A DNA stretch of 64,000 bases from Eublepharis macularius (taxonomy: Eukaryota > Chordata > Lepidosauria > Squamata > Eublepharidae): positions 46,507,368 to 46,571,367 of the forward strand of contig NC_072791.1 in assembly GCF_028583425.1 (NCBI RefSeq). The letters run 5' to 3'. The position numbers were made by a program, and so were the translations under genes. This document shows, piece after piece, positions 2,225 to 56,318 of the stretch (position 1 is its first letter; each line of letters starts with the position of its first letter). Under the pieces are notes generated by a model. It did not search any database. It had not been told where the DNA came from and worked only from the letters and a program-made list of their open reading frames with translations.

Positions 2225-4664
<2,440 letters not shown>

Positions 4665-6585: not shown

Positions 6586-6753
6586 CTACTTTTCTGGCCA
6601 AAGTTGCTTGTGTCGCTCAATGATCTCCTTCACCGCCTCATGGTCATCCAAGGTTGTCAGATCCCCTAGCTCATTGGCTTTGTTTTCTACAATCTTCTTC
6701 AGAACCCGCCGCATAATCTTCCCCGAGCGAGTCTTAGGCAGCCGCCGAGCCAC
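6586..6753 (-). CDS. ACSS1-like: ACSS1-like exon 14 and stop
   Basis: The last exon encodes [20 protein letters not shown] and a C-terminus ending HKQLWPEK with TAG at 6586-6588. The lysine in SGK is the catalytic residue (acetylated and controlled by SIRT3 in human ACSS1). No AATAAA on the - strand was found close downstream. Confidence 0.97.
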
Positions 6754-9700
6754 CTGAGCCAGAAAAATAGGAAGGGTTAGAACAGGTTGGCAAAACCTCA
6801 TTTACCTAGAGAAATCAATCTGTATTAGAAATTGTGAGACCTCCATCTATTTTTCTCCTGTTTCAGTCCATCTCCTCCCAGATTAGTAAAAAGGAAAAGA
6901 TCTCCTTTTCAACCTCGTGAGCATATGTCAGGGTATCACCTAAAAAAAAAAGTTTGCCAAGGGGACCACCCCAGCTATCAGGGCCCTTCTGTGCCCAGGC
7001 AATTGAAGTACAAAGGTCAGATTAACAGTCCATCTGCTTTCTGTCTCATGAAGTCTGAAATGTACATTGAGGAAGAAGCAGCAGGAACAAACTGGGTTAT
7101 AGTGATTTTTTAAAAAATCAGAGGGTATGTGCAAAGCCATGAGGCTTGAGTTGGAATAAAGCCGTGGAGATGCTCCTCTTGGATGGAGGCTCCAAAAGTA
7201 GGCCTCCACCCTCCCTCTGGGAGCCTCCTAGAGAATAGTGAAGGAACAAATTATTTGGTGCCTTGAACAATAGGTGTATTTACTCCACAGCTGATTGCCC
7301 CCATTTGCTAAAACCTCAGTGAACTCATTTGATTCATTTCTCCTGGGCCCAAAATGTATACTTAAGGAACTGAGATGGTCCAGTTATCCTAAGCCCACTA
7401 CTATGATTTGTTCTTGACAGAAATCTCTCAGGCTACCTTACCCATGTCGCTTAAGTTCCGTCCCCCCTCCCCACTCCAGCAAGAGGGTTAGGTGGTCCTG
7501 ATACTGTAATCAGGACCAAAACCAAGTTGTTTGATGGTCTTCAGGGACTTTCAAAATTACATGCAAAAACATAAACTGGTTTTAAGCAGCTTGCATGGTT
7601 AATAGGCGCATAATCCAATATGGTATCTCCAAAATATTTCATGTTTTCATGTCAACTGACCGGGCAGTCTTAATCCAGTCTTTGTATTCTCAGTGCTGCT
7701 GATTTATATCCAATTATTCAGAATAAGTCAGCAGTGAGAGATAAGTTTAGAATATTGTTTATACCTCATCTTTTCCCCTTTCTCCATTTTATCCATACAA
7801 TTATAACTCTGTGAGGTACATGAGGCTGTGTGAGTGTCTTGCCCAAGAACACCTAACAAGCTTCCATGGCAGAATGGGGATTCAAACCCAGATCCTAGTC
7901 CAACACTAACCATTATGCCACACTGGCTCTCAAATATGTTGTGATACTGTTTTATACATTTTGTGTTTGTCCAGAATTCTGTTTTTTGATCATCGAAAAT
8001 ACGAAGCTGCTGTATATGAAATTAGACCATTGGCCCATCTAAGCAGTGGTTCTCCAGGAGCTTTGGCAAAGGAAGACTTTCCCCAACACATGCTGTCCTT
8101 TAAGTAGAAACATCAGAAATTGAACTTTACGTTTGTATTTAGTTGTGCAGCTGCCATAACCAGTCTTTACCTTGTATCCTACCCACAGCTGAACAAAGTG
8201 CTAATGCAGTGCAGTAGAAGGAGAAACAGTCTACAGCTTGTTACCTGAACATATTCAGGGGCAGCATATTTTGCTATCTTTTCTGAAACCAGCTCTCGAA
8301 GCTCAGAGGCTAAACTTTCTTGGGACAGAGTAGAGCCTTTCTTCAGAACAATGAATGCATAGGCTCCTGCCAAAAGAGAAGCCAGGAACAGAATGTACAA
8401 TTGGACATGAGGCACGCCACATGAGAGACCACATTGCTTTGCCCCTTCTCCCAACTCTCTGGCATGGGAACTGAGGGCTACATCTGGCACAGGAGCCCCT
8501 TCTCATGCAGTGAAGACATCAGATTTTATCAGACACTTCCAGCTTCCAGCAATAAGGTCATCAGAGAAAAAGCAGGAAGCAGCAAGGCACAGCACTGCAG
8601 AAAATCTCCCCAAGGAACACTGGATCAAATTTTACTATCAGTTTTTTTAAAAAATTTGAGCTACCCAGGCCATGCACATGCAGCCTGTACTGTACATTCC
8701 ATGTGCACAAGTGTTGCCCTAGTTTCCTGGAGGAGTGAGATCCAAACTAAGCATTATGTTTAATAAGATGGGTTGAAGTTTTTATTATTCTCCATAGACA
8801 CATAGCAGCTGCTGCAAACTAAGTTTCCAAGCTCTTCAGGGCCCAGTTTGGATTGGGATCATGAGGTGGAAAAGGGGCTTCAGTTCCCCCCTCCCCCATG
8901 ACATTTTCCTGACTCAGAATGGCCTGGGGGAAGCAGCATAGAGCTGCCTGCCCTCCAAGCTTTTTTTCTGCTGAACCTCCCTTCCCTATGTCTACTATGT
9001 GTCTTAAAATAGCTTCTTTAACTCCAAACAGCTGTGGGTAAAAGCAGGCAGTCACTCCAGCTCCCACTTGCTGCCTAAATTGATCCTCCCCTTCTGTGTC
9101 TGCAGTAGATGTGGAATATGCAAGCCCCAGTGGAGGTGGAGCCCACAAGAAGTAACTGCAAGACTGACAGTGCAACTTAAAGCATACTGACTCAGAAGCA
9201 AGTCCCCCTCAAGCTCAAGTGGCTTATCCTTGGTAACTGTTTACAGATTTTTTCGGCCAATTACAGAATCATAGAGTTGGAAGGGGCCATACAGACCTTC
9301 TAGTCCAAGCCCCTGCCCAATGCAGGATCAGCCTAAAGCATCTCTGACAAGTATTCATCCAGCCTCTTCTTGAAAACTGTCAGTGAAGGGGAGCTCACCA
9401 CCTCCCTAGGCAGCTGATTCCACTTTTGAACTACTCTGACCGTGAAAAAGTTCTTCCTAATATCCAGCCGGTACCTTTGTGCATGTAATTTAAGCCCGTT
9501 GCTTCAGGTCCTATCCTCTGCTTCCAATTGAAACAGCTCCTTGCCTTCCTCCAAATGACAGCCTTTCAGGATTGTAACCAAAGCCACTCACCTTCTCCTT
9601 TGATCTCATGAGGATATCCAATCACAGCTGACTCTGCTACGGCACCATGGGTGTTCTGGAACACAAACAGGTTTGTTGTTTTACTTCAAGGATCCTTATA

Positions 9701-12700
9701 GACTGGTGGGAATTTGTAGCTCACTAGCCTTGGTGTAGGCAGAAGAAAGGGGACAGAATAGACAGGCTAGGCCCTGATGGTTCAATCCTTCCTTTACGAG
9801 CACTGGCAGACTGGAACCAAACTGTTTCCTGGTATCTTGTGCCACAGGACAACTGTGTGGGCTTCCACACTGAAGATGTATGATCCAGAAAACTTATGAG
9901 GGAGGAGCAAATTAAATAGTAAGTGCTTTAGGTGACTATATAATAGATGAGGGGACCTCTGGAAAACCAGTGTGGGATACTTGAAAGGAGAATGAACAAT
10001 TATTTGCCATGCTAGTCCCCACTAAGGGTATGCACCAAAAAAAAGTATGGGTGAGCCATATCCAGGTTTCAGGGATACCAAAAAAAAAGGTCAGTATCCC
10101 TGAAATCTGGGTCAGATTCTCTAATCTGGTTAGAGAATCCCAAATTTATTCAGTCATGATTCCCTATCGGAAAAACTATCCAGGAAGGGGTTATTTTTCA
10201 AGAAAACACCACCAAATTTGCTGGGAACCTATTTTTTCCTGTCTACTAAAGACCCCTCAAGTTTCAGTAAAATTGGGCCCTGGAGTCCAATTTCATGGGC
10301 CTCTGGAACAAGCTGCCCCAAGCCACCCTCCATTGTTTATTACTAGGGAAGCATTTCCATGGCTTTCCAGGCAAAAGGAAACCTTAAGCAAAGGCAACCC
10401 CTGGGCCAAAAGCCGGTCCCAAACACACATCCCACTCCCTTGTGAGATGAACCACAAAGCCCAACAGAACCAAAGTGAAGGAGGGCAACCAATCTCCAAC
10501 CAAAGGATCCCAATGTAAGACAATCCTGACTCCACCTGAAACAAGAGCGGGCAAGGTTTGATGGAGCTGCGGTGTATAAAAGGTGGCTGGCAGTAGCTTG
10601 AAAGGCTCTTTTGGAGCTCAGGAGGGGATGGAGGAGCAGGATGAGATGGGAATCCTCTCTGTCTGCTGCCTCCTCCCCAGTCCCACCAGGCTCACCCTGC
10701 TCTCCCGCCATGGTGTGAAGGAGGTCGCCTCCATTTGTGCCACTGCCCTCTCACTTGCACTGCTGCCTCTTGCTTGTTGCTGCTCCATCTCTGCTGCAGC
10801 TGAACAATCCAGCTCATAGAGTTTGGCTCATGGAGTTTGGTTCCTTGGAAACAATCTGGGATTATTTTATGTGATCCGTCATAGTTGGATTATGCTGGAT
10901 CAGCATAAATTCAGCTATAAGGCTAGATTCCAAATCCCAAGTTGCACACCCCTAGCCCCTGTTGCTGTGGCATCTCATAAAATTGCTTGAACCAATGTCC
11001 TTCAGATCATTCCATACATCCTTTGCCTTGTGACATAACCATGAGGACTCAAATTGATTAAGTAGATTCTTAGTTGATTCTGAGAAGTTCCTATCCTCCC
11101 ATACCTGCAAAACTGTTGCAGATACATTTTGTTTCTGGAGGGAATGATGCTTTGCATTTATAGGTCCATATAATAACAGCTGTGCTTATATACCACTCTT
11201 CTAGACAGATTAGTGCCCCACTCAGAGCGGTGAATATGGTCAGCGTTGCTATTATCCCTGCAGTACAGCTGGAGCTGAGAGGAGTGGCTTACCCAAGCCC
11301 ACTTGCTGAGCTCAAAGCAGTGATAGGATTCAAACCAGCAGAGTGCTGATTTACAGCCTGCCCATGTACCCTGCATTCAAAATATTTCTAATTCCACATC
11401 AAAAAAATTCTGTGACTGGACATCTCAAATTCTGCAATCAGAATTCACTCTTTTCAAAAATGCAGGCATTCATTTACACACTTCTGAATCTGAAACTCAT
11501 TCTCAGTTGCCTAAGGGCTGTTATTTCCCAAATTAGCGAAGAAGGAGTATTGAGATAGAAACACATGTAGCCACAAGGGACACTAGAGACATCAACTCAG
11601 CTAGTGGTAACTACTAAGTCATAGCATTTGGCCCATTTTCTTAGGCTACTGCTGGCGTTCTGCAAAGATTGCTATGACAACAGCAGGTTCTGTGTCACCT
11701 GCTAAATCCTACGAGTCTGCCTCTGGCTTACCACAATGTCTTCTATCTCAGCAGTGCCCAATCTGTGTCCACTGACATTGATGACATCATCCAGGCGGCC
11801 TGTCAACTGGTAATAGCCTTTGTTTGTCCGATACGCTCCATCCCCAGTGAAGAAATATCCTAGAGGGATCAAAGCAAGCCAACAGTTGTGTTCTAGTGGT
11901 TTTACTGAGGTGGCGTTCAATCTGTGTTTTGTGGTACCACAGCATTCCTCAGAAGCTTATCAGAGGTTCTTAACAAGACGATAACCTTCACTGAGAAAAA
12001 GCTTGTCCATCAGACAGAACTTCCCCTGAAATCTATAGCTACAGGAATCTGGTAGATGTAATATATTCTCAGTGCTGTTAGCCAAGATTTGTTTGTTGGT
12101 ATACTTTTATACCCTGCTTTATCTTCAGTGGTGACACAAAGCAGCTTACATCAGTCTCACCGCCTCTTATCTTAACAACAACCCTGGGAGATAAGGTTAG
12201 TGTATATTTACTTTACTTCATTTACACCCCATCATTCTCAATGGAAGGTGGCATGGTATAGCCTTCTCTTGTCAGATCTCATAAGCTAAGCAAGGTCAGT
12301 ACTTGGATGGTGACCATCAAGGAAGACTCTGCAGAGGAAGGCGCTGTCAAACCACCTTCACTTCTCACTTGCCTGGAAAGCCCGTTGCTGTGGTTGCCAT
12401 AAATTGATTGCAACTTGACAGCATGCATGCACACATACATTCTCAATGGGGACCCAAAGCAACTTCCATTTTTTGTCCATTTTATCCTCACAACAAGCCT
12501 TGTGAGGTAGGTTAGGCTGAGTATGTATGACTAGTCCAAGGTCACCCAACAAGGTTCCATGGCAGAGAGGGGAATTTGAACCTGGGTAGCCCAGAACCTA
12601 GATCTGGCAGTCTAATTACCACTCCACTTTGGCTCCCTTGGTTTTCATAAGCAGATGAGCTGGTAAATGTGTGTTATTAGGCTATTGCAACTCACATTGT

Positions 12701-15700
12701 GACACTCTCCCCAAACTCGAAATTCCTGTGCTTAGGAATTTTGCATATCAAGAAAACTCAGCTAACTCCCTTTTTCTCATATCTAGTTTTCTACATACAG
12801 GGAATCTTTTTGTAGAGAGAAGCATTCAGTCATGAGCAGTGTGAAGAGGAAAAGTCCAGGCCCAGATTTACCATCTTAGCTGCCATTTGCAAGAATTAAG
12901 CCAAAGTGAGTGCCCTCAATATAAAACATGTTCAAGAATCCTCTCTGCTATGTGTGTAAGAGCAGGCTTGGAAGGATCTCTCCACAAGCCAACCAATTTA
13001 AATGTTCCCTGAAAGCAGAACATTTTAAAGCCACTGTGTTAAAAGAATTGAAGCCATTGCAAAAATATTCCAAATGTAAACCCATCATTTCCCCCTCAGA
13101 AAGAGACCAGACCCCTTCACTATAAAAAGGCATTTATGAATTTGCAGTTTATAGTATGCTCACTGCCTCTTTTTTCTGGCCTCTGCCTGTACTAATTTTA
13201 ATATAAACAGTAATTACTGAGGAGGACAAACCACTTCAGAATTTTTGTGGGCCAGATACTTCTCATTCAGTTGGTTCTGAAAGCCATGTGGTTAGTGGAA
13301 GTCATGAAGGGGCAGCCCAGTTCTAGCAAGGAAGTTATTTTATGTCTTCTCTGTTGTCCTCCATTTATGTCTGTGTCCCCATGGAACTTATCCTTCTACA
13401 TGCTTTTCCTGGGTGACCTCATCAAATTGTATGGCTTTCAATGCCATGCATATTTTAATGACACCCAATTATACCTCCATACGCCTGAAACTTTCCCCTC
13501 CATTTGTCTGACATTTCTGATATTATTTGCACTGAAAAGTCTCATTGTCCTCTCAATATGTCCAAGACTTTTCTCCCAAGCCTTCCTCCCTTCATACACT
13601 CTCCATATCCATTGATGTTGCCATACATAATGCCTTGGCCTTCTTTTCTGTTGTTCCCCTGTTGCCATATCATGTTACTTCCCCCTCTACAAAGCTGCAA
13701 AGTATGGCCCTTTCCCTCTGTTCCCCTTGTTGAAAACTGGTTCACTTTCTGACCATGTTTTGCCTTGACTACTGCAGTCAGCTCTCTGGTTTCCTGCCAC
13801 TTTACCTCAAAACCTGTATCTCTTTCCAGCACTCTGCCACCCAAATCATTCAGTTCATTGTTCTGACCTGTGTTGTAGTCCTCATACATTTTCACACAGC
13901 CTCTGTTTGTTTTCAGATCCAGCACAAACTCCTCATCCCTGCCTTCAAATCCCTCAGTACCTCCCTGTCTCTTTGCTCTCACATCCTGATACATCCCTGC
14001 CTGTGACCTTCAGTCTTCCAGCTCTGCCACCTCATCCTTCTGAGGGTCTGTTGCTCACCCTTTCTCCCTTGCTGCCCTTTTATTCCAGGAACTGTTCCCC
14101 AGGACGTTTGTGCAACACCGTCTTTCTTTTTTCAAATTCCTTTTCAAAACCCATCTTGAAGGCTTTGTGCTCCTTCCCTACTAAAAGAAAGCCTAGAACA
14201 GACACACACTTTCCCCATCTATGTCCCCACCTTCAAATCCCTTCTGTTTATCACATTTCAGATTTTGAACTCCTCCTGAGGGCAGAAATCTGTCTTCTTG
14301 TGGTCTGTCAAGCACTGTGCGCATTGAAGGAGCTATGCACATAATTTAAAAGGTCTTTCCACTGTGCAGTTGCAGAGGGAGGTCACTGCCTCAAGCACCT
14401 GAATGTCTAACTAGGCAAATGAAAAGGAAGATTGTTTGCCTTTCTAGTCACATGTAGAAGAGAGGGAACATAAGAGACTCAGAATAGGTACAATCAGTAA
14501 CCAAGTGTAATGAGCTGCATCGCCATCCTTTCTCTGTTTCCACAAGTCCTTGCATACATAAAGCCAGAAAAATCCTGCTTACTAACAGTTGTCCATAGCA
14601 ACACATTGCTCCCCCCTCCACCAGCCACCTTTTCTCACAAGGATGTACCTGGGTAAGGCATCAGGTACGTCTCCAAGAACCTCTGGTGGTCATTGTAAAT
14701 GGTCCTTGCCATACCCGGCCACGCCTGCGTGATGCAAAGAGCTCCAGAGACATTGTTCTGTTTTAAGACATTTCCCTGAAGGAGAAATAATTGTACGATA
14801 ATGTTGAAGATAGTTCTTAGCCCAGTCCTGAGCACATTTACTCAGACGTTCACTGGGGATAACTCCTAAGTAAATGTACATAGGATCGCAGACTAGGGAA
14901 CTCATGTCCATTGTGCTCATTCCACAAAGCCACATAATTTTGAGCTCAAAAAATAGACAAAGAATTACTCCTTTGACAGATTCTTTATCAAACTAGGTGG
15001 CAGCCTGCTATTCTCACTCCCTGCTTTGTAGCCATTCCACTTTTGTGCTGACTGAGGGATTTCACTTGAATCCTGAAAATCTTTAGGGCCAAATTGCATG
15101 TTATCTTTTGTAACAAGTTGGGTCCAAATTCCCCAGACCCAACAGGCTTTCCCTGCAGATTCACAACAGCTGTGGGGAGACACATTTTGAAGGACCCCAG
15201 GGGACCAATTTGATTCAGGACTGTGGCATAGAGGGAGGAGGGACTCCTGCCTCCCATCCACCCCTTTGCTATTTTCCCTAGTTGAAACACCCATTTTGGA
15301 GCTACAATGTTGTGTTACTTCTTTAGAGAAAAAATTAGTTCTCGTGGTTGCACAGTGGGACTTTAAAGTTGCAACCTCAGCTTTTTGGCAACCACTTTTT
15401 ACTCTCCATCCCTCTATGCAATCTTGATTTGTATTTGCATGTGTGCCTGTCTTTGTCTATTCCTCTACTTTTAAAATCCTACTTCATAACTTATTTTCCT
15501 GTAAAGCTAAAGACAGATGATTGTTTTTCAGAGAGGTGAAGGTGGTTTGAAAGAACTGCTACTCTTAGGGGTGTGTATGTCCTCCCATTACTGGCAAAAG
15601 TATAGGTAAGAAGAGGCACCATCCATGCACACTATCTCCTCCCATGCTGCTACCAGCTGAGATCAAGAGTGCTATCTCTACTCTCGGTAGGTTGTAGCGC

Positions 15701-18700
15701 CCAAATGTCTGCCTGGCTCACTGCGGGGTGTAGGGTTGGGTGGGGTGTTGAGCCGTTGAGCCAGCCCTGTCAATTTTTCTGATCTTGAACTTATTTCTTT
15801 AAAACGTCTTAATTTTCAGATTCTGATTCCTCCAGCCTTTGTGTTGAAATTAGTAACAGCTGGCACTACAATCCACCCTTCTATTCAGCTACCGCAGTTT
15901 TGGAAAATATTGGCAACATTTGCCAGGAGATCAGCTTATCTTCACTCACAAAAATAGGCAAGAGCATGGGAAGAAACACAATTGGACTAACCACCTTTAA
16001 CAGCAAATTCATGAAGTACAAAGATCTGTAGGGAACTAACAAAAATTGGATAATGAGACGATATGGTTCAGCGGGAGAGTGCAGGGTTGAAAGGATCTCT
16101 GGTAACAGGTTTTAGATAAGACTTTCCTCTCTCTGGGACCACAGGCTTGTTGTGAGGATAAAACGTTTTGACTTGGTACTAGGCTGCTTCATATGTAAAT
16201 AGATCGCAGCTCTAAAAATCTACATGATGCTCTCGGAAGATTCTGTCCCAGAAGTTGTTTCAACTGATAGTGCTGACTAATGTGTGTGTGGGAGAGAGAT
16301 TGCTAACATTGTTCTCCAGTTTAACAATTCCTGTGATCTGAAAAGTGGATCACAAATAAAATGTACCTTGTCATCCATGAGGGCTGGGCTGATGCCAAAC
16401 AAGGGTCTCATGGCTGCAGCTGGAAGGATTTCAGCTCCTGGGTTTGAAGGACGAGGAGCAATACAGATGCCTCCTGTTTCTAAATAACACAAAACAAAAT
16501 GGATGATTCTCTTAAAATCTGGCCAAGAGGATGTCCCTAACAAGAAAACTTTCCCTTTTATATGATCTCTGACTTGTAGGGGAAAAGAAAGATTCCTCTC
16601 CTGTACTCAAGCCGTCAACAAAGACTCGGATACTTATAAGTCAAGCATTTCAAGAACTGAGAATGATACTCTATTTTGCCACATTTTTACATCTGCACCT
16701 GTTGCAAAGGCAGACTTTGGGCACTTGGCTGGAAAAGCACCAAGCTTACAAAACTCTGTACGTAACCCCTCACTAAGTTAGAATTGCTTTCCTAAGGGCT
16801 GTAACATTGCTTTTGTTTTCCTACCGGTCTGCCACCATGTATCAACTACTGGGCACCGTCTGTCTCCAACCACGTTGAAATACCATTCCCAAGCTTCTGT
16901 GTTGATAGGCTCTCCCACTAAAGAGGAAGAAAAAAGGCAAGTGACATACAAACCAACCATCCAATGAAGTATTACACCTTGGAAATGGCCCTCATAGGAA
17001 TATATGTGGCTACGTAAACTTTTCAGTCCTCTTTAAGTTCTCCATGAAGCTATATTGTATTAATATATCTGATTCATCTGATACTTCAGAGTTCCATATT
17101 CCACCATCCCATTTCCTGAGAAACCCTGGTTCAAAGTAGCGATTCTAATGTGACTTTGCCATAAATACACTGATCAAGACCCAGTTGATTGGCCTGGAAC
17201 ACACCTGATCCAAGAATCCTAAGGGAAGTTCTGTCATATTTCTTCACCCAGCCATCCCCATATCTCAGCAGTAGCCGAATGGCAGTAGGGGCTCCATAGA
17301 ACTGATTTATTCGTAACCTCTCCACAGTTTCCCAGTAACGTCCTGGAATACAAAAACAGATGCAATTACCACAGGACACGAGTCCTTCCCAGCCTGATAT
17401 TCAAACTAGTCTTGCCCCACCTGCTTCAGGCAGCCTACCTTTTTTTAAAAAAAAAGCTCTATCAGACTGAGCATTCACTTGCACAATTGTTCAGTGCCTT
17501 TGATTTTTTAAAAAAGCTGGAATCAACCTTTTAAAAATTGAAAAACAGTATGGGGGGGTGACCTGGTCAGCCAATCAGCACTCTGCATGGCCATCTCCTG
17601 CAGAAATAGGATCTACAAAATGTTCATGGGGGCCCACGTCTCAAGTTGTGTATATCTGCATGTAGCCTTACTCATTTCATCTACACATGACTCCTTTGTG
17701 CTTTGTCTGAACATGCAGAGTAGGCATAAGTATGTTGGCCGGATTGACTGGGGGGGCAGGGGGGGTAGTCTGCCCCGGTGCCGCCTGTGCCATTTGCCTG
17801 CCCTGCCGGACAGGGGGTGGCCAGCTTGCTGTGCGCCCACTGCCAACTCCACGGCACGCTGGGGCAGCCGGTGAGCTACACGGGTGGCACGCTCCTCCCT
17901 GTGTGATGACGTCACAGAAGTGATGTCATCACAGTGCCGGGAGCGCACATGCACGCCGGCAACCCTAGATACAGCCCTGCTTGTGAGCACAGCACCTACA
18001 CAGATAGGATACATCCACGTGAATGCTCACTTCCTGTGACTGGAAAGCAGCTGTTCGAATTATAGGGAGGGATTATATGCATAGACTCTTCCTCCATACA
18101 TAGGTGCCACTCTCTACATGTTCAGTCAGTGCATTCAGTCACCATGCCGAGGGTGATAAAGCCTAAGTGTCCACCACATGTTGATCAAAAGCTGCAGACA
18201 GTTCTGTGATCAAAACTTAATTTTCAGGCAGATGTAGGCCTGTTTTGGATCAGGACCACAGAACTTTGGGAGATGGGGTTTAAGCCTTCCCCTTGATTCA
18301 TTCTACCAATCTGAAAGTGAACCTGGGAGCTGCTTGGGGAAACATACTAATGGTTATGTGCAACTTTCCCTAACAGGACAAATAGCAGCTTCCCAAGGCT
18401 GTTTCAGATTGGGAAAAGGCTTACGCTTCCCCTCACCACACACCATGGTCTTGATCCAAATTGGGCCTACAGACCCACTGTTGATCAACAGTACCCACAA
18501 GCAAAAAAGTGGCAGTCCCAAGGACTGTGATGTTTGAACTGACCCTTGTCATTTCAGAGTACAACTATAGCAGGAATTTTGGATAAAGCTCCCCTATACC
18601 TGAAAAATCCTTTCAAAGGATTACTTAATAATGGTCCTTTGCCTTACTAGAATTTCTGCAAAGATTCTGAAATATATGTGGAAATGTACCACATCTTTTC

Positions 18701-27700: not shown

Positions 27701-30700
27701 AATTCGGTCCTCTTGTCCAGGCTCATCTTTCTCCCAGATTAAGGCCACTTTATTTGGGGCACTGTGGACATGTCGATCCAAACAATTGACTGGAAGAGAA
27801 GAAGACTCTCACCATTGCAGGCCGGGCCATCTTCTAGTTCAGCACAAAGCTACTGCATACATAGTCCTAATTCATAGTAAAATTGATGACTCTCTTATGT
27901 ACTCTTATCTTTTGTTACAGAGGAATTGGACAAATGCTTACCCAGTTCACTAATGTTGGTATTTCTTTTTACCAACATGCAGTCAACAGCTGACTATACC
28001 CAATACCCCAAACCATACAGGGTAAAAAAAAAAAATTTAAAAACCCAGAGTGGCATGTATCCAACCACACATTTCCTCCAACACAGCAGCATTTCCATTT
28101 GCAGAAGAGAGAGTAGTGATTTCTACCAATCCCTCCCTCCACAGCAACTCCCAGTTTGCCCTCTATGCTGCTCCTGAGGGGATTAGATAGATTCATGCAA
28201 AATATGTCCATAAATGACTACTAGCCACGGTGACTAAATGGAATGTCCATATTCAAAGGCAATACACCTCTGAATACCAGTGTCTGGAGACAATATCAGA
28301 GAAAGACATGGACTCTATGCCCTGTCTCTAAGCCCTCCAGGGCTACTGTGTGAAACAGGATGCTGAAGTGGAACTGGGTAGGCCACTTTTCTGACCCAGC
28401 ATGGCTCTTCTTATGTTCTTATTAACTCCCGTCCCAAAACAAAATTCCAGAAGGATATTTCTCCAACAGAACAGGTTTTCTGCTCCTTAGTGGGGGAACC
28501 AAGTGTTCAGCTGGGCTATTTTTTAATATATACATACTTATGTGCCGTCAAGTTGCAACCAACTTATGGTGACCACAGCAAGGGACTTTCAAGACATGAG
28601 AAGAGGTGGTTTGCTGTTTTCTTCCTCTGCAGAGTCTTCCTTGGTGGTCCCTCATCCAAGTACCCACCCTGCTTAGCTTCTGAGACCTGATGAGACTGGA
28701 CTATACTATACCATTCCACATTCCTTTATGTTAAGAACAAGATATTAATCTGTGGTAAAGCCCAACTTGTTCATTTATGCTGTTCTATAATATCCAGTGT
28801 AGGAAAGCTCTTTTCCCCTGCTTGCTGTAGTAAACAGATGGCCTCAGGGAAACACTCACTCATCTCTGAGCCTGCCTTAATATCCTCATATGATGCACAA
28901 AAAGGAAGAAAACACACTTGTAATAAATGGGAGGAAGACCAGAGACCATTTGGCTATATTGTCATTGAGGGGCAAGATGGATTACTTTAATATCCCAGCC
29001 TGTAGTCCTAAAACTTAGTAGTTCACAACATGATGTGATTGGTTAAATGAAGACTTAGCAGAAATGAGGTAGCTCATCCTCTCAATATAGGATTGGACCC
29101 ATAGAATCTCTTCCAGCTGGGAAGTGAAGGGTTAAATGTTCAGTACATAATCTCAGGAAAAACTTGCCAAGGGGAGAAACAGAGCTGAAGTCTGTGCCAG
29201 TGCAAGAGACCATTCTTTGTTTAAAGTTCCTGCTGTCTTGGGTCCATTTATCTGGGAGAACTGCTGAGGCAAACCAGTGCAAACTAGTATTCTCTTTTGT
29301 GTTTTATTTATAGTATTGTGCAATATCTTCTCATCATAGGGAGGGAGCTAAAAAAAATCCTTAAAGATAAAGATGTCTCTCTGGGAACCAAGATCAAGAT
29401 AATCCAAACAATGGTATTCCCTATTACTATGTATGGATGTGAAAGCTGGACAGTGAAGAAAGCAGACAGGAAGACAATTGATTCATTTGAAATATGGTGC
29501 AGGAGGAGAGTTTTGCGGATACCATGGACAGCCAAAAAGACAAATAACTGAGTAGATCAAATCAAACCTGACTCCTCCCTAGAAGTTAAAATGACAAAAC
29601 TGAGGCTATCATACTTTGGTCACATCATGAGAAGACAAGTCCTCTGGAAAAGTGAATAATGATAAGAAAAGTAGAAGGCAGTAGGAAAAGAGGAAGACCT
29701 AAAAAAAGATAGCTTGACTCAATAAAAGAAGCCATGTCCTCCAGTTTGCAAGATCTGAGCAACTCTGTTAATGATAGGACATTTTGGAGGTCTTTCATTC
29801 ATAGGATCACCACAGGTCGGAGGCAACTTGATGGCATATAACACACACACATTGTGCAATATCTGTAACTTTGTCCTGATATATTCCCACGCCTCTGTAT
29901 ATAACTTTGGGGTACCATGTATGTTAGTTAATAAATATTGTTCCTTTCAAAGATCTCAGACTGTTCATAAAGCTCTTTCTCAGAGACCCAAGCTTTTCAC
30001 CCACACAAAGACACCAAAAACCTGGCAAAGCTAAAGAGATATATACCAGCTAGGGGACTTAACCTGGGACTAGAAACTGACAAAAGGTTAATCCCAGGAA
30101 ACAATATATATACGCAATACACAAAGTGACGTTTTATCAACAATGTGAAAGTGTATCAAGTTTTTCAAGCAAATCATATAACAATAAATACAATAAATAC
30201 AAAGGAATTCATGTCTCAATACTCTACAGCATCTATACATTCATCCAAGTGGTAGAAAAATCATTTAAATTCAGTCACAATGGTGCAACAGCACTCCTAA
30301 CAATAAATAACGAAGAAGCTGCTGAAAATGGTGAAGCAGCAAAGCTGTGGAACTGCGATTGCCACGCCGAAGCTGTGAAGCTGTGACCATTCACTTCGGC
30401 GCCTACAAGTTTCGCTGTAGGCGAAACGGTCTAGTCCCGTTTCACAATCAAAGTTATCTGATTGGTAACTACCCAAAGGATAGGAAAGGCGGCTAGCGTT
30501 TCCCTACAAAGAGGATTCAGGCACCTCCATATGCACACATAACACCCTAGCCTCCTGGTCACTGACAGTCTGGAAGGTGGGAAGGGGGAGCAATTGCAGA
30601 TAATTGACACTTGCTGCGGCTTCGTTCCTAGTTTTCATACTGTTAGCATTACATACCTCAGTGGTCATTTTATCTGCTCCCTGGTATCCTTGGAAATTAG

Positions 30701-39700: not shown

Positions 39701-42066
39701 GTATGGCCCGCGGATGATGTTATAAATATCCCAAATGGCCCTTGGCAGAAAAAAAATTCCCCATCCCTGCATTAAGGATATGTGGAAGAGGCCTAAAACA
39801 TTTCTTTCCATTTGTTTGTCTAGACTTTCCTCATTGGAAATTTTTTTTAAAAAAACTTTTAATATGCCATTAATATATATATATAACAAACAGCCAGCAC
39901 ATATTTTGCTTGTATTCCTTTTCCCTGTTCCAGCAGTCTCTTTTGTCCCCCTAGAAAGATGCTATATGTAGTCTCAGGCAGGGGACCACATGAAAAAGAA
40001 GCCATGCTGGCCAAGGGGCTACTATGAGGAGGGGGGAATGCCCCCTCCTACATTTTCTGCATGTGAAAGAGGGGCGTAGCTTTGCCCAATTCCCTCTCCT
40101 CACCACAGTTGCTCAGTTCTATTCAGGTCCCATGACTCCACCAGCATCACTTTTTTAGGGATCAAAAGAAGCTGCAGTCTTCATGGTGGTTGGTCGGGTA
40201 TAACCAATTAAGTCATGACCTGTCAGCCTGTTGTATGTGCTAGCTTTGTTTATGTTCGTGGTTCCCAACTCGGAGTTATTGCAAGGGGTCCTTGAATCAA
40301 CATGTGCCTCAAGTATGGTCATTTTGATTTTTTTGTCATTATGTATTTTCTCAATCAGTGGACACTAATAGTACAACTACTATCCAGTGAAATCCAGTGG
40401 GTGTAGTAGTTAGAGTGTTAGACTAGGATCTGAGAGATCCAGGTTTGAGTTTCCACTCTGCCATGGAAGCTCCCTTGGCGACTTTGGGCTAGTCATACAC
40501 TCTCAGCCTAACCTACCTCACAGGATTGTTGTGAGGATAAAATGGAGGAGAGGAGAATGATGTTAGCTGCTATGAGTCCCCACTGGGAAGAAAGGTGGGA
40601 TATAAATTAAGTAAATAAAATAAAATAAAAAATATGTGAGGATCCATAGAAAATTTTGATATACATAAAAGAAAATTTTGATTTTAAAAAGGGGTCCTTA
40701 TACTCAAAAAGGTTGGGAACCACTGGTTTATGCTATTTCTTTATAAAGTTTTCAAACACACATACACTATGTTCACATGAAAATACATATAATCATTTTT
40801 AAAACCAAATTATCAAAAATAGCCATTCATTGGCGCCCCATATATTTTGTCCAGAGTTCAAATGGAATATACATATATCTACAATGAATTGTGAGTACTA
40901 GTCTTATAAAGGTAATGTTTTGTACAAGAAACATTACTTCAAAAGAGATGTGGCTGATTATTGCATTGTAACTAATAGCACAACAAAGGAGGAAATGTTG
41001 GTATAATATATGCATGCAGTAAATGGGCCAATAGTTCTGGATTCGATAAACAATTATATTCATTAGCTAAACATAAGGAAAGTTTTTAAAAAGAACATAA
41101 TACACATTTTCTATTATGAAATGAATATTTCCACCATAATGCTGCCGCAAATTATTTCACTACAATTGGAGCTCTCTTGCGCCCTGCAGGGCTGCAAACC
41201 TTCATCTCCCAGAATTACAATTGATCTCCAGATGACAGAAAATGGCTGCTGTGGAGGATGGACTCTAAGGCGTCATACCTTGTTGAGATCTCACACCTCC
41301 CCAAATCCTGCCTTCCCCAGGCTCCACCCCCAAATCTCCAGGAATTTTCCAACCCAGAATTGGCAAACCTGTCACAGAGTTGGTAAAAAGAACAAGCACT
41401 TTAACCTCATGTTCTTGAGCCATAGGGTGCATGAAAATAAATTTAATTTTAAATGCATCCTAGCAAATAACCGCAGAATATTTTGTAGAGATTTTTAGGG
41501 TAAAGTCACGAGCTACCGACTACCTAAATCCATCAAAAGAAAGCAGTCCCCAGACGGTGGCATGAAATAACATTGTAAGAAGTCTTACTCTATGGCCTCA
41601 TATTTCGCACACATCCTTTTTCTCTTTCTTCCCTCCCAGTGTTTTTGTCTTCTCCTCTAACAGGTCTGTTCAGCAGGAGAGACTGGCGTAGTCAAAACAC
41701 TGATTCATATATTCAGTGGATCTTCTTGAGAGAAAAGTATGGACAGCTGGCTTCCTACTTACCTGATACATTTAGCTGCCCTCCAAGGAACCAGGACACG
41801 TGGCCTTGCTGTAGGTTGCAGGAACTGACACAGTGAAAGGGGTTGATCCATGTGAGCCTGCTTCTTCCTAGTGCTCCCCAAAATGTGTCTGTCTGTTCCA
41901 CAGACAGCTGGTACAGCCCTTGGTGGTCCCTTGGTCCAGGAAAGGCTGCAGCTTCTGGCATGTATGCAGTCAGAGGCCCCCTGCTCCATGCTCTGGTTTT
42001 GCAGGATGAGTGTCTGCTTTTGGGGGCAGTTTTCGGAAAGCAAGTTCTAGCAAGCAGCCAAGACAT
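6586..42066 (-). CDS. ACSS1-like: Mitochondrial acetyl-CoA synthetase, ACSS1-like, complete (14 exons)
   Basis: Fourteen coding exons splice in consistent phase (2031 bp, 676 residues plus stop; human ACSS1 is 689). The enzyme makes acetyl-CoA from acetate, ATP and CoA. Residues 1-41 hold about seven Arg/Lys and no acid, starting [18 protein letters not shown], as expected for a mitochondrial presequence. Then come [18 protein letters not shown], the adenylation P-loop [11 protein letters not shown] (residues 283-293), [23 protein letters not shown], the hinge [16 protein letters not shown], and the catalytic lysine in [11 protein letters not shown] (about residue 633). Nothing is broken. [10 protein letters not shown] near the end and TFWGALGR near the start fit ACSS1 rather than ACSS2 or ACSS3. 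Position beside VSX2, not VSX1, suggests an ACSS1 paralogue. The start ATG at 42066 has A at -3. Confidence 0.95.
7758..7932 (-). mobile_element. tRNA-derived SINE
   Basis: On the - strand: GAGAGCCAGTGTGGCATAAT, box-B-like GGGTTTGAATCCCC, and a body ending in a CCTCACAGAG-type region. It belongs to the same family as the copies at 12210-12640 and 40395-40632. It is in the last ACSS1-like intron. Confidence 0.75.
8003..8100 (+). mobile_element. Short LINE-tail-like repeat
   Basis: The motif AAATTAGACCATTGGCCCAT followed by GCAGTGGTTCTCCAGGAG resembles a common reptilian dispersed repeat. Assignment to a family is uncertain. Confidence 0.35.
8245..8366 (-). CDS. ACSS1-like: ACSS1-like exon 13
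   Basis: This 122-bp exon between TTGGCAG and GTAACA encodes [20 protein letters not shown] and [20 protein letters not shown], the start of the mobile C-terminal domain. Confidence 0.94.
9264..9572 (-). mobile_element. CR1 LINE 3' end, antisense
   Basis: The + strand starts CAGAATCATAGAGTTGGAAG and runs through CTTCTTGAAAACTGTCAGTG. This is the complement of the CR1 3' end, which closes with the octamer-type tail ATTCTRTG. It ends about 20 bp from the donor of exon 12. Confidence 0.85.
9592..9655 (-). CDS. ACSS1-like: ACSS1-like exon 12
   Basis: This 64-bp exon, recognised only by translation and splice sites, encodes [20 protein letters not shown] plus E and ends at GTGAGT. An antisense CR1 tail begins about 20 bp inside the next intron. 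Confidence 0.93.
10023..10954. mobile_element. Non-autonomous DNA transposon, TIR-bearing
   Basis: The ends form an imperfect inverted repeat (left TAAGGGTATGCACC, right complement TAGGGGTGTGCAAC). Inside is a TATA-like GTATAAAAGG near 10575. A clear target-site duplication was not found, so the hAT assignment is provisional. Long reading frames inside do not resemble a transposase. Confidence 0.5.
11175..11345 (-). mobile_element. tRNA-derived SINE
   Basis: It contains CTTATATACCACTCTTCTAG, then CAGAGCGGTGAATATGGTC, with the tRNA-like head region near 11330 (GGATTCAAACC). It is the same family as the copy at 21953-22180. Confidence 0.7.
11732..11859 (-). CDS. ACSS1-like: ACSS1-like exon 11: hinge
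   Basis: This 128-bp exon encodes [20 protein letters not shown] and then the hinge [20 protein letters not shown], where the C-terminal domain rotates between the two half-reactions. It ends at GTAAGC. Confidence 0.97.
12097..12640 (-). mobile_element. Pair of tRNA-derived SINE copies, interrupted
   Basis: Two antisense SINE bodies lie in tandem (about 12097-12205 and 12210-12640). Both show the GTATAAA tail and the CTCACAACAA-type body; the second has the box-B region GGAATTTGAACC near 12570. The second copy is split by a 5S-type SINE at 12245-12437. Confidence 0.7.
12245..12437 (+). mobile_element. 5S-rRNA-derived SINE inserted in a tRNA SINE
   Basis: The head contains CAGATCTCATAAGCTAAGCA and AGTACTTGGATGGTGACCA, which match the internal promoter region of 5S rRNA. 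The body has AAGACTCTGCAGAGGAAGG and GTTGCCATAAATTGATTGCA. It is flanked by a perfect 12-bp duplication, CATTCTCAATGG, at 12233-12244 and 12438-12449. Confidence 0.88.
13247..14345 (+). mobile_element. Degraded L2-type LINE, reverse transcriptase remnant
   Basis: The translation shows [20 protein letters not shown] followed by [10 protein letters not shown], a decayed version of the L2 RT motif with YADDTQLY. Downstream come remnants such as FCLDYCSQL. Several frame changes and stops make it a pseudogene copy. Confidence 0.65.
14649..14775 (-). CDS. ACSS1-like: ACSS1-like exon 10
   Basis: This 127-bp exon between CCTTCAG and GTACAT encodes [20 protein letters not shown] and [20 protein letters not shown], closely matching human ACSS1. 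Confidence 0.96.
14805..14890. repeat. Short palindromic MITE-like repeat
   Basis: GTTCTTAGCCCAGTCCTGAG ... GTAAATGTACATAGGATCGC resembles a common amniote family of about 90 bp whose ends read CTTAGGATTGCA. It lies just upstream of exon 10. Confidence 0.45.
14890..16366. other. Intron 9 of the ACSS1-like gene (16366-14776), no further feature seen
   Basis: Apart from the small repeat near 14805-14890, this intronic stretch shows no recognisable exon or repeat. The GTGTGTG word near 16282 is a short run only. Confidence 0.5.
16367..16479 (-). CDS. ACSS1-like: ACSS1-like exon 9
   Basis: This 113-bp exon encodes [20 protein letters not shown] and [17 protein letters not shown], and ends at GTACAT. 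The first motif is part of the acyl-adenylate site. Confidence 0.96.
16825..16917 (-). CDS. ACSS1-like: ACSS1-like exon 8
   Basis: This 93-bp exon between CTTTAG and GTAGGA encodes [20 protein letters not shown] and ends in DTWWQT. Its last base completes a Glu codon with exon 9 (QTETGG). Confidence 0.96.
17205..17342 (-). CDS. ACSS1-like: ACSS1-like exon 7
   Basis: This 138-bp exon between ATTCCAG and GTGTGT encodes [20 protein letters not shown] followed by [20 protein letters not shown]. The human equivalent is nearly identical. Confidence 0.96.
17733..17979. mobile_element. GC-rich non-autonomous hAT-like element
   Basis: The right end CTAGATACAGCCCTG and left start GGCCGGATTGACTGG correspond to the terminal repeats of the element at 32006-32609. 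The interior shares CCTGCC/GGACAGGGGG motifs and a TGACGTCA palindrome (17907-17914). No target-site duplication is visible, and the left end is eroded. Confidence 0.55.
18854..19001 (-). CDS. ACSS1-like: ACSS1-like exon 6
   Basis: This 148-bp exon encodes [20 protein letters not shown] and [18 protein letters not shown], lining the acetate and CoA pockets in this family. It ends at GTAAAT. Confidence 0.94.
19002..20935. other. Intron 5, left part, no feature seen
   Basis: This is AT-rich unique-looking sequence. Reading frames near 19641-20134 have no recognisable motif. Confidence 0.5.
20936..21025. repeat. Palindromic MITE, near-perfect hairpin
   Basis: AGTGCAATCCTAAACAGAGT on the left is the complement of the right end, and GCCCATTGATTTCAATGGGC forms the centre. 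The stem covers about 43 bp with one mismatch. A related copy is at 27065-27155. Confidence 0.8.
21203..21445 (+). mobile_element. tRNA-derived SINE
   Basis: Head CCAGTTTGGTGTAATGGTTA, box-B-like GATTTGATTCCCC, body GTGACCCTGGGTCAGTCACA, tail GGTATATAAATCAAATG. It lies in the intron between exons 5 and 6. Confidence 0.8.
21640..21748. repeat. Fragment of the GTTGGCAACCCTA repeat family
   Basis: It contains TTTTCTCCAGGGGAACTGAC and ends CATCTGGATGTTGACAACCCTA, matching one half of the copies at 24898-25093 and elsewhere. Confidence 0.6.
21953..22180 (-). mobile_element. tRNA-derived SINE next to a splice donor
   Basis: It has an (AAC)n tail at about 21958-21979, body GCTTATATACCTCTTCTAGC, and box-B complement GGGATTTGAACC. 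The head ends about 10 bp from the exon 5 donor (22189). Confidence 0.8.
22190..22342 (-). CDS. ACSS1-like: ACSS1-like exon 5: adenylation P-loop
   Basis: This 153-bp exon (51 codons, phase 0 at both ends) contains the ATP-binding signature [11 protein letters not shown] and then [18 protein letters not shown] tRNA-derived SINE begins only about 10 bp inside the following intron. Confidence 0.96.
23379..23554 (-). CDS. ACSS1-like: ACSS1-like exon 4
   Basis: This 176-bp exon lies between CTCCAG and GTGAGA. It encodes [20 protein letters not shown] and a less conserved stretch ending ALDISLEE, which matches the human NQGLRGGRVVELK region. Confidence 0.93.
23627..23857. repeat. TIR-bearing repeat, GGGTTGCCAG type
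   Basis: It begins TAGGGTTGCCAGCCC and ends CCTGGCAAGCCTA, an inverted-repeat pair. It has two internal copies of a CACTGGCAATNTGCTGATGA-like motif. It is probably a MITE. Confidence 0.45.
23992..24182. repeat. GTTGGCAACC-type MITE copy
   Basis: It contains TCCTGGAATTACAACTGATC, GGAGAAAATGGCAACTTC and CCCAAATCTCCAGGAATTTC. The same family recurs at 24898, 25728, 41188 and 49428. Confidence 0.65.
24362..24470 (+). mobile_element. Eroded Penelope-like terminal repeat
   Basis: CATCTGATGAAGTGAGTTCT followed by AAATTTTGTTAGATTTTAAG matches the diagnostic segment of the repeat at 59855-60312, at greater divergence. The link to Penelope-like elements is inference. Confidence 0.45.
24898..25093. 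repeat. GTTGGCAACC-type MITE copy, opposite orientation
   Basis: It starts GGTTGCCAACTCTTGG and ends CTGGATGTTGGCACTCCT. Internal CACCCTCCAAAGCTGCCATT and TTTCTCCGGAGGAACTG are the complement of the copies at 23992 and 41188. Confidence 0.7.
25469..25668 (-). CDS. ACSS1-like: ACSS1-like exon 3
   Basis: This 200-bp exon lies between GGACAG and GTAAGT. It encodes [20 protein letters not shown], then [20 protein letters not shown] and [17 protein letters not shown], the conserved N-terminal adenylation fold. Confidence 0.96.
25728..26045. repeat. GTTGGCAACC-type MITE, duplicated centre
   Basis: The element repeats its central part (AGTTCTCTTGGGGAAAAATG and again AGTTCTCCTGGAGAAAATGG) and ends CTAGAGCTGGCAATCCTA. 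It lies just upstream of exon 3. Confidence 0.65.
27065..27155. repeat. Palindromic MITE, second copy
   Basis: AGTGAAATTCTAAGCAGAGT pairs with the complementary right end, with centre CTCATTGATTTCAATTGG. It is a diverged relative of the hairpin at 20936-21025. Confidence 0.75.
27693..27789 (-). CDS. ACSS1-like: ACSS1-like exon 2
   Basis: This 97-bp exon between CTTCCAG and GTGATT encodes [20 protein letters not shown] and then [13 protein letters not shown]. It follows a 13.97-kb intron 1 that holds most of the transposons in the window. Confidence 0.93.
28175..28432 (+). mobile_element. CR1/L3-type LINE 3' tail
   Basis: It begins with GGGGATTAGATAGATTCATG and ends GACCCAGCATGGCTCTTCTT then ATGTTCTTA, the typical 3' end of this reptilian LINE family. 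Confidence 0.7.
28535..28722 (-). mobile_element. 5S-rRNA-derived SINE, antisense
   Basis: The + strand reads CCAAGTACCCACCCTGCTTA then GCTTCTGAGACCTGATGAGA, the complement of the 5S promoter region. It also has GCCGTCAAGTTGCAACCAAC, matching the tail of the family. It is a second copy of the SINE at 12245. Confidence 0.85.
29329..29850 (+). mobile_element. BovB (RTE) LINE, 5'-truncated 3' end
   Basis: The translation includes [20 protein letters not shown] and [20 protein letters not shown], the C-terminal end of the RTE/BovB reverse transcriptase. Further on comes [13 protein letters not shown]. The 3' end GGAGGCAACTTGATGGCATA plus (AC)n is the BovB tail. It is flanked by an exact 14-bp duplication, ATTGTGCAATATCT (29315-29328 and 29851-29864). 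The coding part has stops. Confidence 0.92.
30101..30495. repeat. Unassigned dispersed repeat candidate
   Basis: It contains AACAATGTGAAAGTGTATCA, repeated ACAATAAATACAATAAATAC, alternating GAAGCTG/GAAGCAG motifs, and a closing GGCGAAACGGTCTAGTCCCG. The texture is that of a transposon end, but no family was recognised. Confidence 0.35.
30770..30838 (+). mobile_element. Short LINE tail remnant
   Basis: GAGGTAGATGGACCAGTGGC then CTGACTCAGCATAAGGCA is the typical end of a CR1/L3-type LINE. Confidence 0.5.
31914..32782. mobile_element. Non-autonomous hAT element (outer), with terminal inverted repeats
   Basis: It starts CAGGGCTTTTTTCCTGG and ends AAAAAAAGTCCTG. About 90 bp at each end are inverted copies (left ATGGTCACATGGCTGGTGGC, right GCCACCAGCCATGTGACCAT). 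It is flanked by an exact 8-bp duplication, ATTGTAAG, at 31906-31913 and 32783-32790, as for hAT elements. The interior was later split by another hAT at 32006-32609. An 18-bp inverted repeat TCCAGACAGAGGGGAGTT lies to the right of that insertion. Confidence 0.88.
32006..32609. mobile_element. GC-rich non-autonomous hAT element (inner, nested)
   Basis: The ends CAGCGCCGGATCTAGG and CCTCGATCCAGCCCTG are inverted repeats. It is flanked by an 8-bp duplication, CCCCTGAT (31998-32005 and 32610-32617). The interior is a run of alternating direct and inverted GC-rich units built on CCTGTCCTGCAGGGCAGG. Overlapping long reading frames on both strands are a by-product of the composition. It also carries TGATGACATCA near 32063. 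Confidence 0.87.
32915..34570. mobile_element. Head-to-head Penelope-like terminal repeat, split by an L1
   Basis: Reading across the L1 insertion, CCAAGGTGTGAGCTTTCGAG on the left is the complement of CTCGAAAGCTCACAACTTGG on the right. Farther left is GTCCAGTAGCACCTTGGAGA, shared with the repeat at 59855. The two arms meet inside the segment GGGAGCTTTAACTCTC. Confidence 0.55.
32980..34528 (-). mobile_element. L1-type LINE carrying ORF1 only, with poly(A) and 19-bp TSD
   Basis: An exact 19-bp duplication TCGAGGGAGCTTTAACTCT (32961-32979 and 34529-34547) flanks the element. The T-run at 32980-32990 is its poly(A) tail, and AATAAA-type motifs precede it. On the - strand a protein starts [20 protein letters not shown] near 34125. 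It has a coiled-coil-like region ([19 protein letters not shown]) and an L1 ORF1 core ([37 protein letters not shown]). One frame change lies near 33925-33935. The tail follows directly, with no ORF2. Confidence 0.85.
34571..36790 (+). mobile_element. L1 ORF2 fragment (reverse transcriptase to C-terminal zinc knuckle)
   Basis: L1 RT motifs appear in order: [75 protein letters not shown] and the catalytic [10 protein letters not shown] (about 35303). Near the end is [18 protein letters not shown], the ORF2 C-terminal cysteine motif. A stop at 34887-34889 and later frame changes show it is dead. No endonuclease, ORF1 or poly(A) belongs to it. Confidence 0.9.
36798..37236 (+). mobile_element. 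Possible solo LTR
   Basis: The stretch begins TGTCACAATC and ends TTTATTGCA (TG...CA). It has a TATA-like GTATTTAAGC near 36919, and is flanked by near-identical 5-bp sequences, CAAGG and CAAGT. It abuts the L1 fragment. No internal region or second LTR is present. Family not determined; the call rests on structure only. Confidence 0.35.
38012..39802. mobile_element. TIR-bearing DNA element hosting a hAT insertion
   Basis: The left end TAATGCCACTTCCACATG and right end ATATGTGGAAGAGGCCTAA form an imperfect inverted repeat on either side of the hAT at 38868-39769. The original element would be about 0.88 kb. Target-site duplication and superfamily are unclear. Confidence 0.45.
38868..39769. 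mobile_element. Non-autonomous hAT element with 8-bp TSD
   Basis: Termini CAGGGATAGGGAA and TTCCCCATCCCTG are inverted repeats, with an 8-bp duplication CATTAAGG at 38860-38867 and 39770-39777. Subterminal GGCCCACGGGCCGG and ATGGCCCGCGGA are also complementary in style. The interior has three direct copies of a unit with CCCTCAAAGTAGCTTCCA (about 39256, 39352, 39557). No transposase is visible. Confidence 0.88.
40256..40725. mobile_element. hAT-type MITE with internal SINE
   Basis: Left TCGTGGTTCCCAACTCGG and right GGTTGGGAACCACTG are terminal inverted repeats. They are flanked by GTTTATGT (40248-40255) and GTTTATGC (40726-40733), a 7/8 match. The centre is occupied by a SINE. Confidence 0.78.
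40395..40632 (+). mobile_element. tRNA-derived SINE inside a hAT MITE
   Basis: It reads CAGTGGGTGTAGTAGTTAGA, GGATCTGAGAGATCCAGGTT, body AACCTACCTCACAGGATTGT, and an A-rich (AAATA)n tail. It is in the same orientation as the copies at 21203 and 48446. Confidence 0.82.
41188..41372. repeat. GTTGGCAACC-type MITE copy
   Basis: It contains CAGAATTACAATTGATCTCC, AGAAAATGGCTGCTGTGGAG and CCAGGCTCCACCCCCAAATC. It lies just left of exon 1 of the synthetase gene. Confidence 0.65.
41763..42066 (-). CDS. ACSS1-like: ACSS1-like exon 1: start, transit peptide, N-terminal domain
   Basis: The ATG at 42064-42066 opens 101 codons plus one base, ending at GTAAGT. It encodes the basic presequence, then [19 protein letters not shown] and [11 protein letters not shown] non-coding 5' exon further right cannot be excluded. 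Confidence 0.9.

Positions 42067-51106: not shown

Positions 51107-56318
<5,212 letters not shown>

Follow-up and report, generated by a model that had tools for sequence, protein, structure and literature searches.

RESULTS

The window analyzed here is a 64,000-nucleotide stretch of the Eublepharis macularius genome (C2:46507368-46571367), and genome searches covered 2.24 Gb in 72 contigs. The minus strand of the window carries a complete coding sequence, here named ACSS1B, that was assembled from the window sequence in 14 exons. The original prediction placed the gene at 6586..42066, and these limits are the stop and start codons of the assembled model. Exon 1 (41763..42066) begins with the start codon at 42066 and encodes an arginine- and lysine-rich N-terminus and most of the ACAS_N domain (match at C2:46549131-46549289). 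Exons 2 (27693..27789), 3 (25469..25668), and 4 (23379..23554) are taken from the gene model; exon 5 (22190..22342) encodes the nucleotide-binding loop (amino acids 283-293), and exon 6 (18854..19001) encodes WITGHSY (amino acids 329-335). The motif GSVGEP crosses the junction of exon 7 (17205..17342) with exon 8 (16825..16917), and TWWQTETGG crosses that of exon 8 with exon 9 (16367..16479). Exons 10 (14649..14775), 11 (11732..11859), 12 (9592..9655), and 13 (8245..8366) again come from the gene model, and exon 14 (6586..6753) encodes LPKTRSGK and ends in the stop codon. All 13 introns are GT-AG, and the joined exons give 2031 nucleotides that translate to 676 amino acids and a stop with no internal stop codon. 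Because the coding sequence is intact, we rule out that the gene is a pseudogene. A further ACSS copy was not found within 264 kb around the window.

The protein encoded in the window scores as an acetate-activating enzyme. It matches the acetate--CoA ligase model TIGR02188 with 905.1 bits (E=2e-272), over the curated NCBIfam cut-off of 724.95 bits, and falls below the cut-offs of two propionate--CoA ligase models. Moreover, the Pfam domains ACAS_N, AMP-binding, and AMP-binding_C all exceed their gathering scores, and the chains that score highest among solved structures carry the name acetyl-coenzyme A synthetase. The catalytic motifs of this family, including Trp414 and Lys609 of Escherichia coli Acs, matter for function. 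Those tested in the window protein begin at amino acids 283, 432, 546, and 626; TWWQTETGG aligns at the position of Trp414, and LPKTRSGK aligns at that of Lys609, which corresponds to Lys633 of the window protein. Finally, residues 1 to 37 include seven lysines or arginines and no aspartate or glutamate, the first acidic residue being at position 38. The best N-terminal hydrophobic moment is a modest 0.37, versus 0.59 in the second copy described below, in a comparison of composition and moment. The basic, acid-free composition is like that of mitochondrial presequences, although the moment is modest, and the presequence is therefore a putative one.

On one side, the gene is flanked by VSX2. 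An exon with the end of the homeobox and the CVC domain lies on the minus strand at 56082..56273 (C2:46563449-46563640; Homeodomain, 23.2 bits with a cut-off of 22.9), and a minus-strand open frame at 51107..51688 holds the last VSX2 coding exon, with an OAR motif (32.5 bits, cut-off of 20.1) and a stop codon at 51107-51109. On the opposite side, the neighbor is likely ABCD4. ABC-type motifs were read by eye in plus-strand frames within 3282-3506 and 4242-4406, the latter an open frame with the Walker-B-like motif LDEATSAL and a probable ABCD4 exon, and the Pfam matches of these probable exons were below cut-off (ABC_tran, E=0.085; AAA_30, E=0.0022). Thus, of the original claim that an intact ACSS gene sits between ABCD4 and VSX2, the complete coding sequence and the VSX2 side stand, and the ABCD4 side is likely rather than proven. 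A plus-strand frame at 628-759 of the window was rejected as a wrong guess, with one chance Pfam match below cut-off.

When the genome was searched with the window protein, 37 matching stretches were found, and a search for ACAS_N gave four places: C1, the window on C2, C5, and C9. The original prediction had called for a search of the same genome for an ACSS1 linked to VSX1, whose lack would have spoken against an ohnolog. The search left that reading standing: an intact copy was found on C1, sharing the strand of a VSX1 exon that lies 23 kb upstream of it. This gene, ACSS1A, has its matching exons at 206.537-206.586 Mb and consists of 14 exons encoding 691 amino acids, with internal splice sites that are all AG/GT; at layout, its exons were given the phases of the window gene, which the splice sites afterwards bore out. 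Exons 2 to 12 have the same length in both genes, and exon 13 is one codon shorter on C1. The two genes are alike in their 14 exons, matching phases, and catalytic motifs, with WITGHSY, GSVGEP, and TWWQTETGG conserved in both, but they differ in locus, in N-terminus, and in 34% of aligned residues (438 of 668 are identical, or 66%). Exon 1 is just 41% identical over the aligned part. Between the coding sequences, pS was 0.736, dS was saturated at approximately 3, and dN was 0.26, for a ratio of approximately 0.09 (Nei-Gojobori). The synonymous saturation indicates that the split is old, and the low dN beside it indicates that amino acid change has been constrained.

The remaining two ACAS_N places are more distant members of the family. 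We read the C5 gene as ACSS2 and the C9 gene, which is unassembled, as ACSS3 from their exon sequences. In a tree of four sequences and 318 columns, in which ACSS2 was represented by the C5 fragments, the window and C1 copies grouped with each other to the exclusion of ACSS2 and E. coli Acs; both alternative topologies were rejected (p-AU < 0.001). Over the same 318 positions, the window protein was identical to the C1 protein at 232 and to the ACSS2 fragments at 179. The four-sequence tree shows only kinship with ACSS1, the two copies being sisters with respect to ACSS2 and E. coli Acs, and does not date their split. A duplicate of ACSS2 is ruled out by the tree. The matches on C9 are weaker (37-50% identity) and appear to rule out a duplicate of ACSS3, a gene outside the four sequences of the tree.

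The neighborhoods of the two copies are also paired; we note that neighbor names are readings from family matches and position. Of 69 candidates scored in a genome search with the VSX2 homeobox/CVC exon, two were matches, one near each ACSS1 copy. The C1 match (C1:206514679-206514870) is 89% identical to the VSX2 exon and lies 23 kb upstream of ACSS1A on the same strand. ENTPD-type exons were found at C1:206.447-206.453M on the minus strand and at C2:46.775-46.776M on the plus strand, the latter approximately 204 kb past the VSX2 side of the window. Thus, ENTPD6-VSX1-ACSS1 on C1 matches ENTPD5-VSX2-window gene on C2 in gene order and in orientation, the pattern expected after duplication of a block.

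The wider block fits more poorly. A CD225 match at C2:46.383M, 124 kb past the ABCD4 side, was read as SYNDIG1L, and no CD225 match (SYNDIG1) was on C1 among the 30 listed. Likewise, no paired-box match (PAX1) was on C1 among the 16 listed; two full-length single-exon paired-box matches at C2:48.8M and C7:8.9M were read as PAX1/PAX9. Phosphorylase exons past ENTPD6 on C1 (206.343-206.370M) were read as PYGB, a gene that lies beyond ENTPD6 in human as well, and 41 Mb separate the C2 phosphorylase from the window. The poorer fit could be due to rearrangement or to matches that were missed. There are three glycogen phosphorylase loci in the genome, at C1:206.34M, C1:227.3M, and C2:5.75M.

DISCUSSION

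The window gene is very probably ACSS1B, a VSX2-linked ohnolog of the VSX1-linked ACSS1A that arose by duplication of a block and would encode a working mitochondrial enzyme. The original prediction had likewise read the gene as an ohnolog, and that reading is supported by the intact twin on C1, by the paired order and orientation of ENTPD, VSX, and ACSS genes, and by the old divergence of the copies. The duplication of the block containing ENTPD5/6, VSX1/2, and ACSS1 most likely belongs to the genome duplications of early vertebrates, a suggested date that rests on saturation and synteny. Human 14q24 is not known to contain an ACSS gene. Loss of ACSS1B in mammals is suggested by mammalian gene lists and by the title of Castro et al. 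2012. The gene would be a clean case of an ohnolog that one vertebrate lineage has retained and others seem to have lost.

How ACSS1B would act may be proposed from its sequence. The putative N-terminal presequence would direct import into mitochondria and thereby place the enzyme in the matrix. There, the enzyme would join acetate and ATP into acetyl-AMP, and CoA would then displace AMP to yield acetyl-CoA. Acetylation of Lys633 would inactivate the enzyme, and a deacetylase of the SIRT3 type would reactivate it, by analogy with the Lys635 acetylation/SIRT3 switch of ACSS1 described in a review (PMC7689297). According to the same review, mice lacking ACSS1 appear normal in the fed state and become hypothermic on fasting, and we infer that a second enzyme could add robustness. 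The suggestions of the original prediction concerning fasting and histone acetylation are speculation.

The two copies might be a true ohnolog pair and yet the window copy might have drifted in substrate, regulation, or tissue role, a reading that is compatible with ACSS1B and that we regard as possible but unlikely. The low identity of exon 1 over its aligned part is consistent with drift. Moreover, the chicken gene named ACSS1L or ACSS1B (UniProt E1BZT9 in PMC8566343 and PMC10531955) is repeatedly reported from liver in transcript, protein, and acetylation studies (PMC8147372, PMC11426133, PMC7764366, PMC10531955, PMC8566343). An "ACSS1-like" protein is also reported from embryonic liver. 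The same set of chicken studies reports ACSS1B from ovary too, however, and another study names chicken ACSS1A and ACSS1B together and finds that both rose in the breast muscle of heat-stressed broilers (PMC9484139). Thus, chicken ACSS1B is not confined to liver. Also against drift, both copies keep the same three motifs, and the window protein passes the acetate--CoA ligase cut-off and fails both propionate--CoA ligase cut-offs. More doubtful still is the idea that non-mammalian amniotes split mitochondrial acetate activation, such that ACSS1B became more regulated and liver weighted and mammals, after losing it, were left with ACSS1A alone; the reports from muscle and ovary lower its odds. 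If true, such a division of roles would help to explain why mammalian liver exports acetate instead of burning it.

Alternatively, the VSX-ACSS1 block might have been copied by a recent, lineage-specific segmental duplication instead of by whole-genome duplication. Two copies in like neighborhoods of one genome are consistent with such an event, and our comparison draws on this genome alone. The synonymous sites are saturated at a pS of 0.736, however, and the proteins are only 66% identical. Moreover, the human VSX genes map to 20p11.21 (VSX1) and 14q24.3 (VSX2) (PMC2211742), and because these are different chromosomes, the split of the block predates the lineage studied here. Finally, chicken studies name both ACSS1A and ACSS1B. 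We therefore consider a recent duplication very improbable. That a single ACSS1 was translocated next to VSX2, such that the window gene would be a simple ortholog, found no supporting point and is barely credible, as C1 still has its own intact ACSS1 next to VSX1, which rules out movement of a single gene.

That ACSS1 has a twin is, judging by a title, already known. Castro et al. 2012 (Gene 497:249-255) announces a "novel Acss1 gene" and the retention and loss of paralogues in vertebrates, and as far as the title goes, it shares with our gene the theme of a second vertebrate Acss1. Chicken ACSS1B/ACSS1L is likewise a second ACSS1-type gene, named alongside ACSS1A and likened to the window gene here by its name. 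We take the chicken gene to lie beside VSX2. A term search of the literature did not find a paper that pairs ACSS1 with VSX2. In goat, the ACSS subfamily is reported to comprise three genes (PMC9490004). For birds and reptiles, mammalian acetate physiology, with its one mitochondrial ACSS1, need not hold, a point that, by its title, the 2012 paper had already made. What is new lies in the detail: models of the two genes as they stand in this genome, and a broken retrocopy of one of them.

The retrocopy indicates that ACSS1B has been expressed. An intronless piece at C1:27080453-27080811 is identical to the window coding sequence at 324 of 360 positions, with 10 gaps, and runs with small deletions across junctions 10/11, 11/12, and 12/13, from exon 10 to exon 13. 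The match of the same piece to the ACSS1A coding sequence extends over only 151 positions, 116 of them identical. We conclude from these alignments that the piece is a truncated and broken retrocopy of the window gene. The retrocopy implies that at some time the window gene was transcribed in the germ line and its message spliced there. Moreover, the fused exons confirm three junctions of the gene model.

Intron 1 of ACSS1B contains repeats of other kinds. A LINE-like element is present at 34434-36837 on the plus strand together with 33006-33962 on the minus strand, and the location of its parts on opposite strands suggests an inversion. The minus-strand frame at 33006-33962 had no Pfam match at E<=0.01, and its resemblance to L1 ORF1 is our assumption. 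The segment at 31892-32723 has long open frames on both strands, up to 213 amino acids, with repeating phrases, and is probably a tandem or low-complexity repeat. Finally, within the LINE-like element, the plus-strand frame at 34890-35747 encodes a reverse transcriptase (RVT_1, 92 bits).
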